A stretch of DNA of 64,000 nt from positions 62,001 through 126,000 of the forward strand of contig NZ_JAJUWT010000020.1 of the NCBI RefSeq assembly GCF_021390395.1. The letters are read 5' to 3'. Both the position numbers and the translations under genes were made by a program. Below the pieces are notes generated by a model that searched no databases, was not told where the DNA came from, and saw only the letters and a program-made list of their open reading frames with translations. This stretch comes from Saccharothrix sp. S26 (lineage in GTDB: Bacteria > Actinomycetota > Actinomycetes > Mycobacteriales > Pseudonocardiaceae). Below, in pieces: positions 29,881 through 62,224 of this stretch (within the stretch, counting starts at the first letter, position 1; each line of letters starts with the position of its first letter).

Positions 29881-30851
29881 CCGAGCCTGTGCTGGACGTG
29901 CACCTGACCCCCGAGGACGCGGCGATCGCGCTGCGCGCCGAGGCGAGGGCGGGGCTGACCGCGCGGCCGAAGTGGGTGTCGCCGAAGTGGTTCTACGACG
30001 CGGTCGGCAGCGACCTGTTCGAGGAGATCACCCGGCTGCCCGAGTACTACCCGACCCGCGCGGAGCGCGAGATCCTGGTGGCCCGGGCGGCGGAGATCGC
30101 GGCGCTGACGGGCGCGCGTTCGTTGGTGGAGCTGGGTTCCGGCTCCTCGGAGAAGACCCGGCTGCTCCTGGACGCCCTCCGGGAGCACGGCACCTTGCGG
30201 GAGTTCGTGCCGCTGGACGTGTCGCCGACGGCGTTGACCGACGCGGCCCGGGCGATCCTGGCCGCGTACCCCGGGCTGCGGGTGCACGGCGTGGTCGGCG
30301 ACTTCACCGAGCACCTGGGCCTGCTGCCCGGCGTGCCGCCGCGGGTGGTGGCGTTCCTGGGCGGCACGATCGGCAACCTGATCCCGGAGGAGCGCGACAA
30401 GTTCTTCGCGTCGGTGCGCGAGGTGCTGGACGCGGGGGAGTGGCTGCTGCTCGGTACCGACCTGGTCAAAGACCCCGACACCCTGGTGCGCGCCTACGAC
30501 GACGCGCGGGGCGTGACGGCGGAGTTCAACCGCAACGTGCTGCGGGTGGTGAACCGCGAGCTCGACGCGGACTTCGACCCGTCGGACTTCGAGCACGTGG
30601 CGCTGTGGAACGCCGAGGAGGAGTGGATCGAGATGCGCCTGCGGGCCGTGCGCCCGGTGAAGAGCCACGTGGCGGCGCTCGGCTTGGAGGTCGAGTTCGC
30701 CGAGGGTGAGGAGCTGCGCACCGAGGTGTCGGCGAAGTTCCGTCGGGAGGGCGTGGAACGGGAGCTGACCGCCGCCGGTTTCGAGCTGCACCGGTGGTGG
30801 ACCGACTCCGAGGGGCGCTTCGCCCTGTCGCTCTCTCGGGCGGTCGGGTAG
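29877..30851 (+). CDS. egtD: L-histidine N-alpha-methyltransferase EgtD
   Basis: 324 residues. It makes hercynine from histidine with three SAM molecules. ELGSGSSEKTRLLLDAL is the SAM-binding motif I; FLGGTIGNLIPEER, LLLGTDLVKDP and YDDARGVTAEFNRNVLRVVN are EgtD-specific. ATG 29877 overlaps the egtC stop. The expected fifth gene, egtE (PLP-dependent C-S lyase), does not follow; instead a convergent SDR frame runs antisense through the last 326 bp of egtD. Confidence 0.96.
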   Translation: MTEPVLDVHLTPEDAAIALRAEARAGLTARPKWVSPKWFYDAVGSDLFEEITRLPEYYPTRAEREILVARAAEIAALTGARSLVELGSGSSEKTRLLLDALREHGTLREFVPLDVSPTALTDAARAILAAYPGLRVHGVVGDFTEHLGLLPGVPPRVVAFLGGTIGNLIPEERDKFFASVREVLDAGEWLLLGTDLVKDPDTLVRAYDDARGVTAEFNRNVLRVVNRELDADFDPSDFEHVALWNAEEEWIEMRLRAVRPVKSHVAALGLEVEFAEGEELRTEVSAKFRREGVERELTAAGFELHRWWTDSEGRFALSLSRAVG

Positions 30852-31554
30852 CCGTGACGTGCAGGACGGACCCGGTCATGAAGCGGTTGCGCTGCACGGC
30901 GGTGAACGCCTCGGCGAGGTCGTCGGGCGTGCCGACCCGGCCGGTCGGGAGGCGGTCCGCCATCGCGGCGAGCCGTTCGGCCTTGGCGGGGCCGTCGAGG
31001 ACGTCCCACACGGGGGTGTCGACCCAGCCCGGCGAGACGGCGTTGACCCGGACCGGCGCGAGCTCCAGGGCCAGCGCGCGGGCGAGCGCTTCCAGCGCGC
31101 CGTTGGCGGCGGCGAGCACGGACGCGCCCGGGCCCGGGCGGTGCGCGGCGACGCCGGAGGTGAAGGTGATCGAGCCGCCGGGCACGACGTGCGGTCCCAC
31201 GTGCTTGGCCACCAGCCACGGCCCGAGCAGCTTGGTGTCCAGCGCGGCGCGGGCGTGGTCGAGGGCGAAGTCGGCGATCGGGAAGTAGGCGTCGCGCGCG
31301 TCCACGGCGGTGACGACGACGTGGTCGAGCGGGCCGGTGCGCCCGGCCAGGCGTCGCACCTCGTCCTCGCTGGTGATGTCCACCTGGTCGGTGCGCAGCC
31401 GGTCGGTCCCGTTCGGGGCGAGGGCGCGTGAGGCGTCGGCGAGGCGTTCGGCGGACCGGCCGGCGATCGTGACGACGGTGTCCTGGGTCAGCAGGTGTCG
31501 GGCCAGCGCCAGACCCATGCCGGAGCTGCCGCCGATGACGAGTACGTGTGTCAT
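30526..31554 (-). CDS. Short-chain dehydrogenase/reductase with read-through C-terminus
   Basis: The first 235 or so residues are a normal classical-type SDR (VIGGSSGMGLALARHLL, NxxG-like region, FTSGVAAHRPGPGASVLAAA, VNAVSPGWVDTPVWD, NRFMTGSVLHV). In this subfamily the Ser-Tyr-Lys triad is incomplete (Tyr is not evident). After SVLHVT, where homologues end within 5-8 residues (typically DGG-x-x-L), the frame continues about 105 Arg/Pro/Ser-rich residues antisense to egtD. The true terminus seems lost. It is divergent from a XRE-type regulator, a common regulator/SDR pairing. Confidence 0.8.
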   Translation of the reverse strand: MTHVLVIGGSSGMGLALARHLLTQDTVVTIAGRSAERLADASRALAPNGTDRLRTDQVDITSEDEVRRLAGRTGPLDHVVVTAVDARDAYFPIADFALDHARAALDTKLLGPWLVAKHVGPHVVPGGSITFTSGVAAHRPGPGASVLAAANGALEALARALALELAPVRVNAVSPGWVDTPVWDVLDGPAKAERLAAMADRLPTGRVGTPDDLAEAFTAVQRNRFMTGSVLHVTATRPPERATGRSAPRSRSTTGAARNRRRSAPVPRPPDGTSPTPRCAAPHPRRTRPPSRAPPRGSSPGARPAGASRSTPPRRSTAPRARSPTGRSPRRARGSPPAARCG

Positions 31555-31648
31555 GCCGACCAGCGTCGTCGTGGGCGGCGGGTGCGGGGAGACCGGCGCG
31601 GGCCTGGTCCTCGCGGGGCCACCCGCGGTCGGTGCGACACTCGCCGGT

Positions 31649-32401
31649 GTGGGTGAGCTGGGTGAGTTCCTGCGGAGCAGGCGTGGACGCGTGCGGCCGG
31701 CGGACGTGGGTCTGCCGGAGGGGGTCGGTCGGCGGCAGACACCGGGGCTGCGTCGTGAGGAGCTGGCGACGCTGGCGGGCGTGAGCGTGGACTACTACAC
31801 GCGGCTGGAACAGGGCCGTGACACGAACCCGGGCGCGGAGGTGCTGCACGCGTTGGCGTCGGCGTTGCGGCTGGGTGACGACGAACGGGCGCACCTGCAC
31901 GCGTTGGCGGGCCAGGTGCCCGGTCCGGCACCGCTGGGGTCGGGTGCGCCGCGTCCCGGCCTGCTGCACCTGCTGGAGGCCGTGCGGCCGACGGCGGCGT
32001 ACGTGCTGGACCAGGTCAGCACCGTGCTGGCGGTGAACCCGGAGGGCGCGCGGCTGATGCCGGGCCTGTCGGAGCGGGACAACCTGGTCCGTTACGTGTT
32101 CACCGACCCCCGTGCCCGCGAGGTGTTCGTGGCGTGGGGCGACATGGCCCGCGACTGCGTGGCCCACCTGCGCACGGTCGCCGCCGTCGACCCGACCCGG
32201 CCCGCCCTGACGGCGCTGGTGGCGGAGCTGTCGGCGGCCTGCGCCGAGTTCGCCGACCTGTGGCGGCACTACGACGTGAAGGTCAAGACGGGCTCGCGCC
32301 GCACGTTCCGCGACGACACCGGCCACACCTTCGACCTGACCTCCGAGATCCTCACCGCCCCCGACGGCCAACGCCTCGCCGTCTTCCGCCCCACCCCCTG
32401 A
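31649..32401 (+). CDS. Helix-turn-helix regulator with MmyB-like ligand-binding domain
   Basis: 250 residues. The N-terminal XRE helix-turn-helix (RRQTPGLRREELATLAGVSV, then DYYTRLEQGRD) and the MmyB-like C-terminal domain (YVLDQVSTVLAVNPEGARLM, RYVFTDPRAREVF, GSRRTFRDDTGHTFDLTSEI) place it in a large actinomycete family. Members are typically divergent from, and control, a SDR gene, as here. GTG 31649 is used; the frame upstream lacks family similarity. Repeat element copy A starts 5 bp after its stop. Confidence 0.9.
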   Translation: MGELGEFLRSRRGRVRPADVGLPEGVGRRQTPGLRREELATLAGVSVDYYTRLEQGRDTNPGAEVLHALASALRLGDDERAHLHALAGQVPGPAPLGSGAPRPGLLHLLEAVRPTAAYVLDQVSTVLAVNPEGARLMPGLSERDNLVRYVFTDPRAREVFVAWGDMARDCVAHLRTVAAVDPTRPALTALVAELSAACAEFADLWRHYDVKVKTGSRRTFRDDTGHTFDLTSEILTAPDGQRLAVFRPTP

Positions 32402-32405
32402 CCCT

Positions 32406-32592
32406 CGCGTGTCCTACCTCCAAACCGCGCGTGTCCTACCTCCAGAACGCGTGTGTCCTACCTCCAGACCGCGAGAGTCCTACGTTCGCGACCCCCGAGT
32501 TGAACGCTCAGGACGGCCGGGGCTGTTCTGAGCGTTCAACTCGGGTGTTCCGAACGTAGGACACACGCGACGTGAACGTAGGACTCACGCGT
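32406..32592. repeat. Palindromic 22-nt-unit repeat element, copy A
   Basis: Four direct units of period 22 (GTCC at about 32411, 32433, 32455, 32477) lead into a hairpin: outer arms GTCCTACGTTCG (32477-32488) and CGAACGTAGGAC (32551-32562), inner arms CCCGAGTTGAACGCTCAG (32494-32511) and its exact complement (32528-32545), loop of about 16 bases. Two reverse-oriented units (GTAGGAC at 32556 and 32578) follow. The core from 32470 to 32569 is nearly identical to the inverted copy at 61149-61337. It lies exactly between two convergent genes and contains the stop of the minus-strand one. Confidence 0.9.
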
Positions 32593-33583
32593 GGGGCAGG
32601 GGGAGGGCGGCGATCGCCGGGTCGGTGATCGCGGCACGCAGGGCGGAAGCGAAGCGGTCCGCCCGCAGGACGCGGAACGGGCGGGAGTGGTACGGGCGGG
32701 TGGTCGGGTCCACCGGGTCGGCCAGGCCCAGCGCGTTGCACTCGGCGGCGACCCGCTCGTACGCCACGGCCAGGTGGTCCTCCCGCGCACGCCAGTCGGT
32801 CGCCGCCAGCACGGCGCGCAGCACCGGCACCAGGTCGGCGTACCGGGCGAACGCGCTGCCCAGCCACTTGCCGTACGGCGGGTAACGGCGGTCCAGCAGC
32901 AGGCGCAGCCGCATCAGGTCGTGGGTCAACCGGGCCGCCACGATGGCCGACCCCAGCTCGTCACCGACCTCGCCGCACCGCCCGACGAACGCCTCCTCCC
33001 GCGCGATCCGCGTCCACTGGCACGCCAGCACGTACCGCCACACGTCGTCCGGGTACCACCGCAACGCCTCACGCGCCGCCGTCAGCACCCGGAGCCCGTC
33101 GTGGAACACCGCGCCGGCCGTCGTCTCCGCCAGCCGCTGCGTCGGCGTGCCCAACCAGTCCCGCACGGTGACGCCGCCCCGCGGGTCGAACCCGAGCCGC
33201 TCGCGGAACCACGTCCCCGCGTCGGTCACCTCCACCCGGTGGCACACCGGCCCGTCCGTGCGCGCCATCCGCCCGACACCCTCGTCCGACGTCGGCTCGA
33301 AGTGCGTGGGGAACCCGAGGAACTCCTTCGGCAGGTGCTGCGACAACGCCTCCCGGATGTCGTCGGCACGCGTGTCGTCCGGGTCGAGGAACAGTTGCAG
33401 GCGCGGCCCCCACTCGTGGTCGACCGAGCGTTCGGTGTCGAAGCCGAGCACCTCCGAGCCGGGGCCGATCCGGGCCGCGCTGTGCGGCACCTCGCCGAAG
33501 TGGGCCCTGACCAGCGGTTCGACGCCATCCCAGTAGAACCGTTCGGCCAACACCAGGCCCGGCAAGAACCGTCCGTAGGGCAC
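32585..33583 (-). CDS. DUF4037 domain-containing protein
   Basis: 332 residues. The N-terminal half carries a nucleotidyltransferase-like region (GFDTERSVDHEWGPRLQLFL) and LPKEFLGFPTHFEP; the C-terminal half matches DUF4037 (DVWRYVLACQWTRIAREEAF, then LTHDLMRLRLLLDRRYPPYG). The family is predicted to be minimal nucleotidyltransferase-like; function unknown. GTG 33583 follows GGAGG by 4 bp. Its stop codon lies inside the last unit of repeat copy A, so the element forms its 3' end. Confidence 0.82.
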   Translation of the reverse strand: MPYGRFLPGLVLAERFYWDGVEPLVRAHFGEVPHSAARIGPGSEVLGFDTERSVDHEWGPRLQLFLDPDDTRADDIREALSQHLPKEFLGFPTHFEPTSDEGVGRMARTDGPVCHRVEVTDAGTWFRERLGFDPRGGVTVRDWLGTPTQRLAETTAGAVFHDGLRVLTAAREALRWYPDDVWRYVLACQWTRIAREEAFVGRCGEVGDELGSAIVAARLTHDLMRLRLLLDRRYPPYGKWLGSAFARYADLVPVLRAVLAATDWRAREDHLAVAYERVAAECNALGLADPVDPTTRPYHSRPFRVLRADRFASALRAAITDPAIAALPLPHA

Positions 33584-60566: not shown

Positions 60567-61148
60567 ATGTCGCCCGTGGTGGTGGCGGAGAACTGGCGGG
60601 AGATGGTCGACTGGTCCGTGGCGCTGCTGCGCCGCGGTACCGGCGAGGGCGTGCCGGAGTGGAACCGGCGGGTTCTGTCGTCCGGCCTCGACAACGAGCG
60701 TGACCTGCGCGTTTGGCTGCGCGAGCAGGGCGTGACCGGGTACCCGCAGATGCTGCTGGTGATGGAGCGGTTCGGGTACCCGGACCTGCTGCGGGGGTCG
60801 TCGGACGAGGTGGTGGACGCCCAGTACGCCGACCGGCCCGAGCTGCGGCCGATCCTCGACCGGCTGCTGGCCGAGGCGGCGTTGCTGGGGCCGATGCACG
60901 TCCAGGCGCGCAAGACCTACGTGGCGCTCGTGACGCCGCGCCGGACGTTCGCGATCGTGAAGGCCAGCACCCGGACCAGGGTGGACCTGGGCCTGCGTCT
61001 GGCGGGCCACCCGCCGACGGGCCGACTGGAGCCCGCCGGCTGCCTGGGCAACGACACCATCACCCTGCGGATCGGCATCGGCAGTGCCGACGACGTCGAC
61101 GACGACACCCTGACCAACCTCCGCCACGCCTACACCGCCAACTCCTGA
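60567..61148 (+). CDS. DUF5655 domain-containing protein
   Basis: 193 residues. The C-terminal half (GPMHVQARKTYVALVTPRRT, then FAIVKASTRTRVDLGLRL) matches DUF5655, a predicted transport- or DNA-associated family with no assigned activity. The N-terminal 80 residues include a SAP-like helical stretch (LRVWLREQGVTGYPQMLLVM). ATG 60567 follows GAGG. Its stop is 3 bp before repeat copy B. Confidence 0.75.
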   Translation: MSPVVVAENWREMVDWSVALLRRGTGEGVPEWNRRVLSSGLDNERDLRVWLREQGVTGYPQMLLVMERFGYPDLLRGSSDEVVDAQYADRPELRPILDRLLAEAALLGPMHVQARKTYVALVTPRRTFAIVKASTRTRVDLGLRLAGHPPTGRLEPAGCLGNDTITLRIGIGSADDVDDDTLTNLRHAYTANS

Positions 61149-61337
61149 CCGCGCGAGTCCTACGTTCGGAACGCGCGTGTCCTACGTTCGGAACACCCGA
61201 GTTGAACGCTCAGAACAGCCCCGGCCGTCCTGAGCGTTGAATTCGGGGGTCGCGAACGTAGGACTCTCGCGTTCCGAACGTAGGACTCTCGCGTTCTGGA
61301 CGTAGGACACACGCGTTCTGGAGGTAGGACACGCGCG
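61149..61337. repeat. Palindromic 22-nt-unit repeat element, copy B (inverted relative to copy A)
   Basis: Two direct units (GTCC at about 61157 and 61179), a central hairpin (left arm around 61196-61212, right arm 61230-61247, with two or three mismatches), then four reverse units with GTAGGAC at 61258, 61280, 61302 and 61324, again period 22. Read on the minus strand it has the four-plus-two arrangement of copy A, and the core (61171-61270) differs at only a few positions. It fills the gap between a plus-strand and a minus-strand gene. Confidence 0.9.
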
Positions 61338-61339
61338 GG

Positions 61340-62224
61340 TCAGCCGTGGTGGTGGCGGTAGGTGGTGGCGGCGCCGGGGTGCAGGGGCAGGCCGGCGGTG
61401 CCGATCAGGCTGCGCACGTCGAGGAACTGGGTGCCCAAGGTCTGCCGGGGCACGAGGGCGGCGGCGCGGGAGATCAGGGTGCGGGTGACGGCGGCGGCCA
61501 CGTCGTCCGGCAGCGACGCCCGGCAGACCAGGAGGTTGGCCACGCCGATGGTGGGGACCTCGCGGGTCGCGCCGTACACGCCCACCGGCACGGGCACCTG
61601 GTCGTAGACCGAGCCGTGCGCCGCACGCAGCCGCGGCACCAGGTCGGCCAGCGGCAGCAGCCGGATGCCGGGCAGCTCGTCCAACGCGGGCGTCGGCACG
61701 CCACCCGACCACAGCAGCGCGTCGATCCGCCGCCGCGCCAACGCCTCCGCCGCGTCACCGAGCCGCAGGTGCTCCACCCGAACGGAGTCGCGCAGGCCCA
61801 GCGCGACCAGCATCCGCTCACCAGACAGCGACGCGCCCGAGCCCTCCGCGCCCAGCGAGACGGTCCGCCCGGCCAGGTCGGCGGGCACCCGCGCCGGGTC
61901 GTCCACCCGCACGACCAGTTGCAGGTAGTTCTCGTACACCCGGCCCAACGCCCGCAGCTCCAGCCCCGGGTCGGCGACGCGGGCCGAGTCGGCCAGGGTC
62001 AGCGCCACCTGGACCTCACCCGACGCCAGCAGCGCCAGGTTCGCCAGGCTCCCCTCGGTCTCCAGCACGCGCCCGCGCACGTCGACGAGCTGCTCGGCGA
62101 GCAGCGTCGCGAAGTCGAAGTACATGCCGCCGCGCTCACCCGCCGCGATGACCACCTCACCCGACGGCGCGCCGGTCCCGCACCCGGCGGCCAGCAACCC
62201 GAGCAGGAACACCCGCCGGTTCAC
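61340..62224 (-). CDS. TAXI-family solute-binding lipoprotein
   Basis: 294 residues. A lipobox (LLGLLAAGCGTGAP, lipid Cys near residue 15) precedes a TAXI-type periplasmic-binding fold: IAAGERGGMYFDFATLLAEQ, EGSLANLALLASGEVQVALT, AGRTVSLGAEGSGASLSGER. Such proteins bind glutamate-like or other organic acids for TRAP transporters, but no TRAP permease is here. GTG 62224 overlaps the stop of the histidine-kinase gene, so it probably serves that kinase as an extracellular ligand-binding partner. Confidence 0.88.
   Translation of the reverse strand: MNRRVFLLGLLAAGCGTGAPSGEVVIAAGERGGMYFDFATLLAEQLVDVRGRVLETEGSLANLALLASGEVQVALTLADSARVADPGLELRALGRVYENYLQLVVRVDDPARVPADLAGRTVSLGAEGSGASLSGERMLVALGLRDSVRVEHLRLGDAAEALARRRIDALLWSGGVPTPALDELPGIRLLPLADLVPRLRAAHGSVYDQVPVPVGVYGATREVPTIGVANLLVCRASLPDDVAAAVTRTLISRAAALVPRQTLGTQFLDVRSLIGTAGLPLHPGAATTYRHHHG

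Follow-up and report, generated by a model that had tools for sequence, protein, structure and literature searches.

The window analysed here, a stretch of 64,000 nucleotides of the genome of Saccharothrix sp. S26, contains two copies of a compound palindromic repeat, designated elements A and B, each located between the 3' ends of two convergent genes. By unit register, element A spans positions 32404-32591 and element B positions 61150-61337. The left neighbour of element A is a plus-strand gene (31553-32401), which we take to encode a helix-turn-helix regulator-like protein, and the left edge of the element lies 2 nt past its stop; the right neighbour is the minus-strand gene of the hypothetical protein P0001 (32585-33583), whose TGA stop (low end 32585) is found inside the outermost unit of the right arm. 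Element B begins 1 nt past the stop of the plus-strand gene of a 193-aa protein (60567-61148) and ends 2 nt short of the minus-strand gene of P0002 (61340-62224, stop beginning at 61340), presumably a substrate-binding-like protein, which was matched in all 25 Saccharothrix genomes, S26 included. Regarding the surroundings of element A, the segment 30848-32401 carries the regulator gene and a presumed SDR-like gene (approximately 30848-31554) between a presumed EgtD-like gene and P0001. The gene at 31553-32401 was not found between the latter two in G022, G005 and G015, where they are apparently adjacent, the gap between them in G022 being an array; in the comparison of element A with G022 only the right array flank was common, and the left neighbours were specific to S26.

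The left arm of element A consists of four plus-strand U units (32404-32491, starting at 32404, 32426, 32448 and 32470) with the core GTCCTAC, followed by the plus-strand central A unit (32492-32513, a GTTGAAC variant), which is the left inner hairpin arm, a loop core of 12 nt (32514-32525), the minus-strand central a unit (32526-32547), which is the right inner hairpin arm, and a right arm of two minus-strand U units (32548-32591). Element B has a left arm of two plus-strand U units (61150-61193), a plus-strand central A unit (61194-61215), a loop core (61216-61227), a minus-strand central a unit of the GAATTCAAC variant (61228-61249) and a right arm of four minus-strand U units (61250-61337). 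The grammar is thus U U U U A - loop - a u u in element A and U U A - loop - a u u u u in element B, with the central units 34 nt apart in both. The initial annotation had described two copies in inverted orientation, with few differences between them, a strict 22-nt spacing, outer arms of 12 bp and inner arms of 18 bp, and all of these features were recovered: the copies are identical at 169 of 188 positions, four plus- and two minus-strand units in A correspond to two plus- and four minus-strand units in B, the 22-nt spacing is strict inside each arm, and both sets of arms are present, the inner pairing being perfect in A and 16/18 in B (by eye). It had missed that the inner hairpin arm is one more unit of the 22-nt period, though a diverged one (CCCCCGAGTTCAACGCTCAGAA aligned to CGCGAGAGTCCTACGTTCAGAA). 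The local alignment of A and B extended up to 47 nt past the array, which is probably a low-penalty extension in GC-rich sequence; an exact breakpoint of homology is not claimed.

A unit-pair pattern yielded eight matches in the window (all exact, with up to three mismatches allowed) versus none in 100 shuffles, and 162 + 128 matches in the S26 genome (9.08 Mb, 54 contigs) versus none for a reversed-pattern control, which excludes a chance origin of the repeats; a single-unit pattern gave 390 matches in the genome. A weight-matrix parse of 1.009 Mb of long stretches (C1:110001-509249, C3:20001-420000 and C20 whole, leaving out C1:1-110000 and the ends of C3; the C1 and C3 stretches were picked after the first match lists were known) resulted in 31 elements, from which a genome total of 123-126 was estimated by scaling with unit counts. 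The two copies first noticed therefore belong to a multi-copy family of about 125 arrays. The full design is U(2-6)-A-loop-a-u(2-6), where U is the 22-nt unit around GTCCTAC and A the diverged unit, and half and head-to-head arrays are present beside it. The long-stretch elements comprise 15 tail-to-tail, 11 half and five head-to-head arrays (or arrays with a head-to-head centre), while a set of 50 distinct elements, obtained by adding 60 further search loci that are biased to full T-type elements, comprises 31, 12 and 7, respectively; inverted arms occur in 20/31 and 38/50. The element is consequently not always palindromic, as had been assumed at first, and the module on which it is built, U(n)A, has a polarity.

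Arrays of mixed unit types (e.g., S S T T A) occur frequently in several species. The S type lies outside the T type in 27 arms and inside it in 12, with seven arms interleaved; a general rule for which type lies outside was rejected, the order being just a bias. The outermost units show 0.14 mismatches, as compared with 0.20 in the innermost and 0.29 in the middle units, and this lowest value rules out that the outermost units are old, decayed ends. Loops are common to subsets of copies (by eye).

Regarding the position relative to genes, convergent gaps make up 166 of the 905 gene gaps of the long stretches and contain 21 of the 31 arrays (p 2e-9); seven other arrays lie in ++ gaps, one in a -- gap and two in -+ gaps. 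As genes were called with our own simple codon-score finder, which missed at least one gene (the SDR-like gene mentioned above), the gap counts are approximate. An array is faced by 50 gene 3' ends, of which 41 were no more than 10 nt from the array edge, a proximity overlooked in the initial annotation. An occupied convergent gap equals the array in length within 12 nt in 16/21 cases, and of the convergent gaps without an array, 39/145 deviate from zero by no more than 12 nt; arrays occupy only 21 of the 166 convergent gaps. The array-to-stop distances range from -13 to +8 without a single phase, and in some cases the array contains the stop (CGCGTGAGTCC; TCCTGAGCG). TAA stops are enriched beside arrays (10/50 versus 29/858 other genes, p 2e-5). 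At two sites (C3:119885-119930 and C3:329510-329543) an ordinary GC hairpin was seen by eye between the stop and the array, which there begins 50-60 nt past the stop and does not adjoin it. At G005:C23:324414 a gene apparently reads through two U units and terminates with a TGA located within the A unit (by eye); if so, the end of the protein is supplied by the array.

The plus-strand RNAs of elements A and B each fold into a single extended hairpin (z -11.5 and -12.3; plus strand only), and one head-to-head array folds with a z of -8.0. For three half arrays, the folding does not exceed that of shuffled sequences (z -0.8, -1.3 and -0.7). Since half arrays account for 11 of the 31 elements and the three folded ones have no significant hairpin, hairpin termination is not the whole story, and half arrays, at about a third of all, argue against terminator as the sole role. 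Array-free convergent gaps of 25-140 nt (n=55) have a median z of -3.05 and 67% of them lie below -2, compared with 22% of 170 tandem gaps and 11% of 79 divergent gaps (mononucleotide shuffles, 30 per gap). At the B site, a short plain GC hairpin is seen by eye between both stops in the array-free congeners G007, G024 and G021, and the two stops overlap in G010, G011 and G016 (by eye). Given the structured array-free convergent gaps and the plain hairpins in congeners, the niche that the arrays occupy is most likely that of bidirectional terminators. A scan of positions 32300-32700, covering element A only, yielded no terminator-like site with a T tract; terminators without a T tract are known in actinobacteria. 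It is most improbable that the elements are ordinary intrinsic terminators which converged on a similar hairpin. Such an origin would fit the location past stops and the strong folding of full elements; it is at odds with the strict 22-nt grammar, the 90-94% identity of unlinked copies, the half arrays without a hairpin and the absence of matches to the reversed pattern, and as a full account it is refuted by the shared unit sequence and loops.

The two arms of an element agree in unit type and in register (SSTTA-attss and similar) in mixed-type elements. The arm mismatch was 0.148 (155 pairs, 65 elements), as compared with 0.241 when right arms were re-dealt within species (p 0.003). No base-pair-level covariation of the arms was detected in S26 (p 0.83 for outer and 0.22 for central paired units). 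As the fine variation of paired units is uncoupled between the arms in S26, strict stem selection is disfavoured, and coarse arm-to-arm copying or exchange of whole palindromes fits better than selection on the stem base pair by base pair.

Comparison with close relatives revealed shared sites with differing content, which had escaped the initial annotation. Of the 13 S26 arrays with syntenic DNA, 12 have an array at the corresponding position in G022, and 12 have one in G005. In the reverse direction, 13 of 14 G022 arrays had mappable flanks, of which 12 met an S26 array, and 12 of 14 G005 arrays had mappable flanks, all 12 meeting an S26 array. Sharing falls with distance: of the five S26 arrays on C20, G015 shares two, G021 one and G011 none. 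Both G015 arrays examined met an S26 array (2/2), as did two of three mappable G021 arrays (both the same S26 array), and no array was found in 220 kb of G011. At three orthologous sites, half arrays lacking an inverted partner persist in three species. A half array with a second inverted repeat (CTCGATTTGACATGG ... CCATGTCAAATCG) immediately past it was observed by eye at one and the same site of S26, G022 and G005 (approximately C20:61820-61960 in S26, just outside the window, G022:C1:7711845-7711912 and G005:C23:223834-223877); this repeat is possibly another repeat family.

At the common sites, the unit core, unit number, loop and sometimes the polarity differ between S26 and its relatives. 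Nearly all outer units of S26 are of the T type (128/140), those in G022 are mostly of the S type (GTCGAAC; 21 S versus 2 T), and G005 is mixed with 10 S and 9 T; the array at C1:225553 is head-to-head in S26 and tail-to-tail in G022 and G005, and a half array at C1:197011 in S26 stands against head-to-head arrays in the relatives. Full-length identity is 90% between A and B and 94% between B and C1:504730, as compared with 65% between B and its G022 orthologue and 64% between B and its G005 orthologue. With A and B so much closer to each other than B is to its G022 orthologue, the identity of their loops and cores reflects copying, as initially proposed, and not convergent terminator structure alone. 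Aligned-column identity to the orthologue was 61-77% for G022 and 67-91% for G005, with a flank median of 91%. The nearest neighbour of an element was a paralogue of the same genome in 11/13 cases in S26, 8/12 in G022 and 1/12 in G005, where it was an element at another site of another genome in 9/12; the orthologue was nearest for only three of the 37 elements of the three genomes. The mean normalised score was 0.47 among S26 paralogues, 0.37 for S26-G022 orthologues and 0.38 for S26-G005 orthologues. A weak orthologue excess over non-orthologues was observed for S26-G022 (0.37 versus 0.24, p 0.0006), with corresponding values of 0.37 versus 0.23 for G022-G005 (p 0.002) and p 0.10 for S26-G005. 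Common sites with differing content indicate that the content is younger than the sites in this group of close relatives, and the arrays of a genome evolve in concert.

The initial annotation had named a RAYT or other transposase as a possible associate of the repeats. No Y1/RAYT transposase was found in S26 (PF01797, 0 matches), nor any Y1 transposase in the array-rich genomes G001, G003, G005 and G008 (PF01797); the same search was positive in 5/14 named genomes as a control. Among the 25 congeners, five have PF01797 matches, one or two each: G013, G015 and G020, which have arrays, and G019 and G023, which have no match to element A. A RAYT/Y1 protein as the mover was therefore rejected, being absent from S26 and, among congeners, present without tracking the arrays (only Y1 was searched). 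Carriage by plasmids or phages was likewise rejected, with no match to element A in a plasmid or phage collection; viral contigs, scanned once, contained two matches to a single unit, the surrounding sequence of which is without an array. As to MITE features, both array ends are units at varying phase, and no target duplication was seen by eye.

These data bear on the possibility that the arrays are a REPIN- or MITE-like non-autonomous mobile element, moved by a non-RAYT transposase, which prefers, or survives only at, convergent stop-codon junctions, so that common sites would result from target preference with repeated re-insertion. Near-identical copies at unlinked places, the loops that certain copies have in common (by eye), sites in congeners that lack the array and have overlapping or plain stops, the TAA enrichment beside arrays and the precedent of MIRU at gene junctions (PMC12548453) all speak for such an element. 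We nevertheless regard it as unlikely, as Y1 is missing from S26 and the four array-rich genomes and does not follow the arrays elsewhere (Y1 being the only family searched), close relatives with differing arrays have nearly the same sites occupied, the distances to stops have no single phase and no target duplication was seen, and the protein ends at B and at C20:61689 look alike with and without the array (by eye).

Within the genus, similarity to element A was detected in 15 of 25 Saccharothrix genomes (S26 included) and in none of 35 genomes outside the genus, while the strict T unit occurs in 12/25. The arrays are thus dispensable, 10 of the 25 Saccharothrix genomes being without a match to element A. 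A pattern scan of named genomes gave at least 83 stretches, and all matches listed were from Saccharothrix. Two other queries gave the following: element B matched 15 of 150 family genomes (7/46 genera), and an array with a 21-nt period matched 52 of 200 genomes (22/46 genera; three candidates scored per genome, some matches weak). Among 31 loci inspected, three of them from Saccharothrix, a clear period of 21 or 22 nt (or its double) was found in 26, representing 14 genera; the misses were L370, L372, L379, L378 (cut by N) and L358 (where the sequence beside the match was examined). The period is 22 in g1 (S26), g53 and g54 and 21 in the other eleven genera. In L324/L351 and L371, from other genera, 21-nt arrays alternate two unit types and so have a perfect 42-nt period. 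The cores across genera include GTCGTAC, GTCGTGC, GTCCTGC, GTGCTGC, GTTCCGC and others, most of which fit the frame GAGT-NNN-[AG]C-G-TTC, with some outside it; to judge by the shared frame in these sequences, common descent across genera is likely. Regarding the arrays outside Saccharothrix, 23 were parsed from the 25 best-match loci (one per genome, two too weak); a gene 3' end was located at -45 to +30 nt in 15/23, and 11/23 lie in convergent gaps.

The heart of the unit, CCT in the T type, is found in 128/140 outer units of the long S26 stretches, while the positions flanking the core vary (the unit search was seeded on GTCCTAC), and other species have other cores (GTCGAAC, GTCCAAC and GTCGTAC). 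This pattern could indicate that a sequence-specific protein binds the unit, be it nucleoid-associated, involved in DNA topology, or a nuclease or methylase, for which the three central bases would serve as a specificity code, so that the arrays of a genome would follow when the protein changes. The period of 22 or 21 nt, about two helical turns, and the half arrays kept at three orthologous sites in three species are in line with it. The protein is putative, mixed arrays are common and are not favoured by a single code, and species-specific cores are also expected from simple concerted drift; we therefore consider this explanation rather improbable.

The initial annotation knew of no named family with this design. 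No Rfam family reached the gathering score in the window, and a survey of titles and opening parts of abstracts, mostly of open-access literature, yielded no described family in Saccharothrix or Pseudonocardiaceae. REP, REPIN and BIME sequences are described as high-copy and intergenic, forming inverted pairs and mosaics of unit types, and as favouring 3' and convergent gaps (PMC3733652, PMC1525189, PMC2817692, PMC3116915); to this extent the present arrays, which are high-copy, intergenic, often inverted pairs, mosaic in units and located in convergent 3' gaps, are alike. They differ in that the S26 genome is without a RAYT, that the arrays are head-to-tail tandems of units of exactly 21 or 22 nt, and that the arrays abut stop codons and differ in content at sites common to close relatives. 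Unlike a REP, the unit CGCGNGWGTCCTACGTTCRGAA is not itself a hairpin, and there is no GTAG-headed single-unit palindrome; GTAG occurs on the minus strand of T-type units and is absent from the S, W and Y types. Of the known classes, BIME/REP comes closest; as neither a RAYT nor a GTAG-headed palindrome, two features that define it, was found, the arrays are referred to as BIME-like and not as BIMEs. CGTC-tagged REPs are palindromic and apparently also without a dedicated transposase (PMC3733652), but are tagged single palindromes instead of tandem 22-nt arrays; in the main text of the same source the word Actinobacteria occurs 0 times. The inverted repeats maintained in Caenorhabditis conserve structure better than sequence, implying active maintenance (PMC1803023), and the arrays resemble them in that the inverted-repeat structure outlasts its sequence; those repeats, however, are eukaryotic, long and near-perfect and comprise gene pairs and whole intergenic sequences (PMC1803023), whereas the arrays are short dispersed units. 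The units are contiguous and without spacers, unlike a CRISPR array, and the strong hairpin lacks a T tract (scanned in A only), unlike an intrinsic terminator. MIRU insert at start codons or overlaps of co-oriented genes, and the MIRU ORF couples to the next gene, whereas the arrays follow the stops of mostly convergent genes (21/31), often with inverted arms. The likeness to mycobacterial MIRU, which insert at gene junctions, is that both are actinobacterial repeats situated exactly at such junctions (PMC12548453).

The reading that we tentatively prefer is that the arrays are BIME-like and dispersed, occupy a bidirectional-terminator niche and are kept homogeneous by ectopic copying or conversion. 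The polar module runs from the stop codon with two to six U units and closes with one diverged A unit; in many cases two modules face each other round a short loop and give a long inverted repeat, which would form a hairpin whichever gene is transcribed. As its most likely function, the array would replace an ordinary bidirectional hairpin terminator or insulator between convergent genes. Between close relatives, arrays would rarely reach new sites; existing ones would instead be overwritten by copies of others, through ectopic gene conversion or targeted replacement, and units would be gained and lost by slippage, so that the arrays of one genome drift jointly towards one unit type. Palindromes are unstable, and conversion may be triggered by breakage at the palindrome; a targeted enzyme is the alternative.

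Extended to the whole family, this would mean that Pseudonocardiaceae possess arrays of 21- or 22-nt units at the boundaries of convergent genes, with fixed sites, swapped content and a genome-specific three-base heart, which a putative homogenising machinery would rewrite in scattered but conserved 3' gaps, either by palindrome-triggered ectopic conversion or by a lineage-specific enzyme which reads the heart; we put this forward as a possibility that is open to considerable doubt. The REP/REPIN models do not predict that numerous short repeats, scattered over a bacterial genome and without a known transposase, evolve in concert, and the natural contrast between equal sites and flanks with other content, together with the array-less congeners, makes the mechanism directly testable. 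The apparently unnamed family is a good subject for the question of how dispersed DNA repeats stay alike, and its description would give a name to a feature that recurs in the 3' gaps of an antibiotic-producing family of actinomycetes, with a bearing on annotation and on the choice of terminators.
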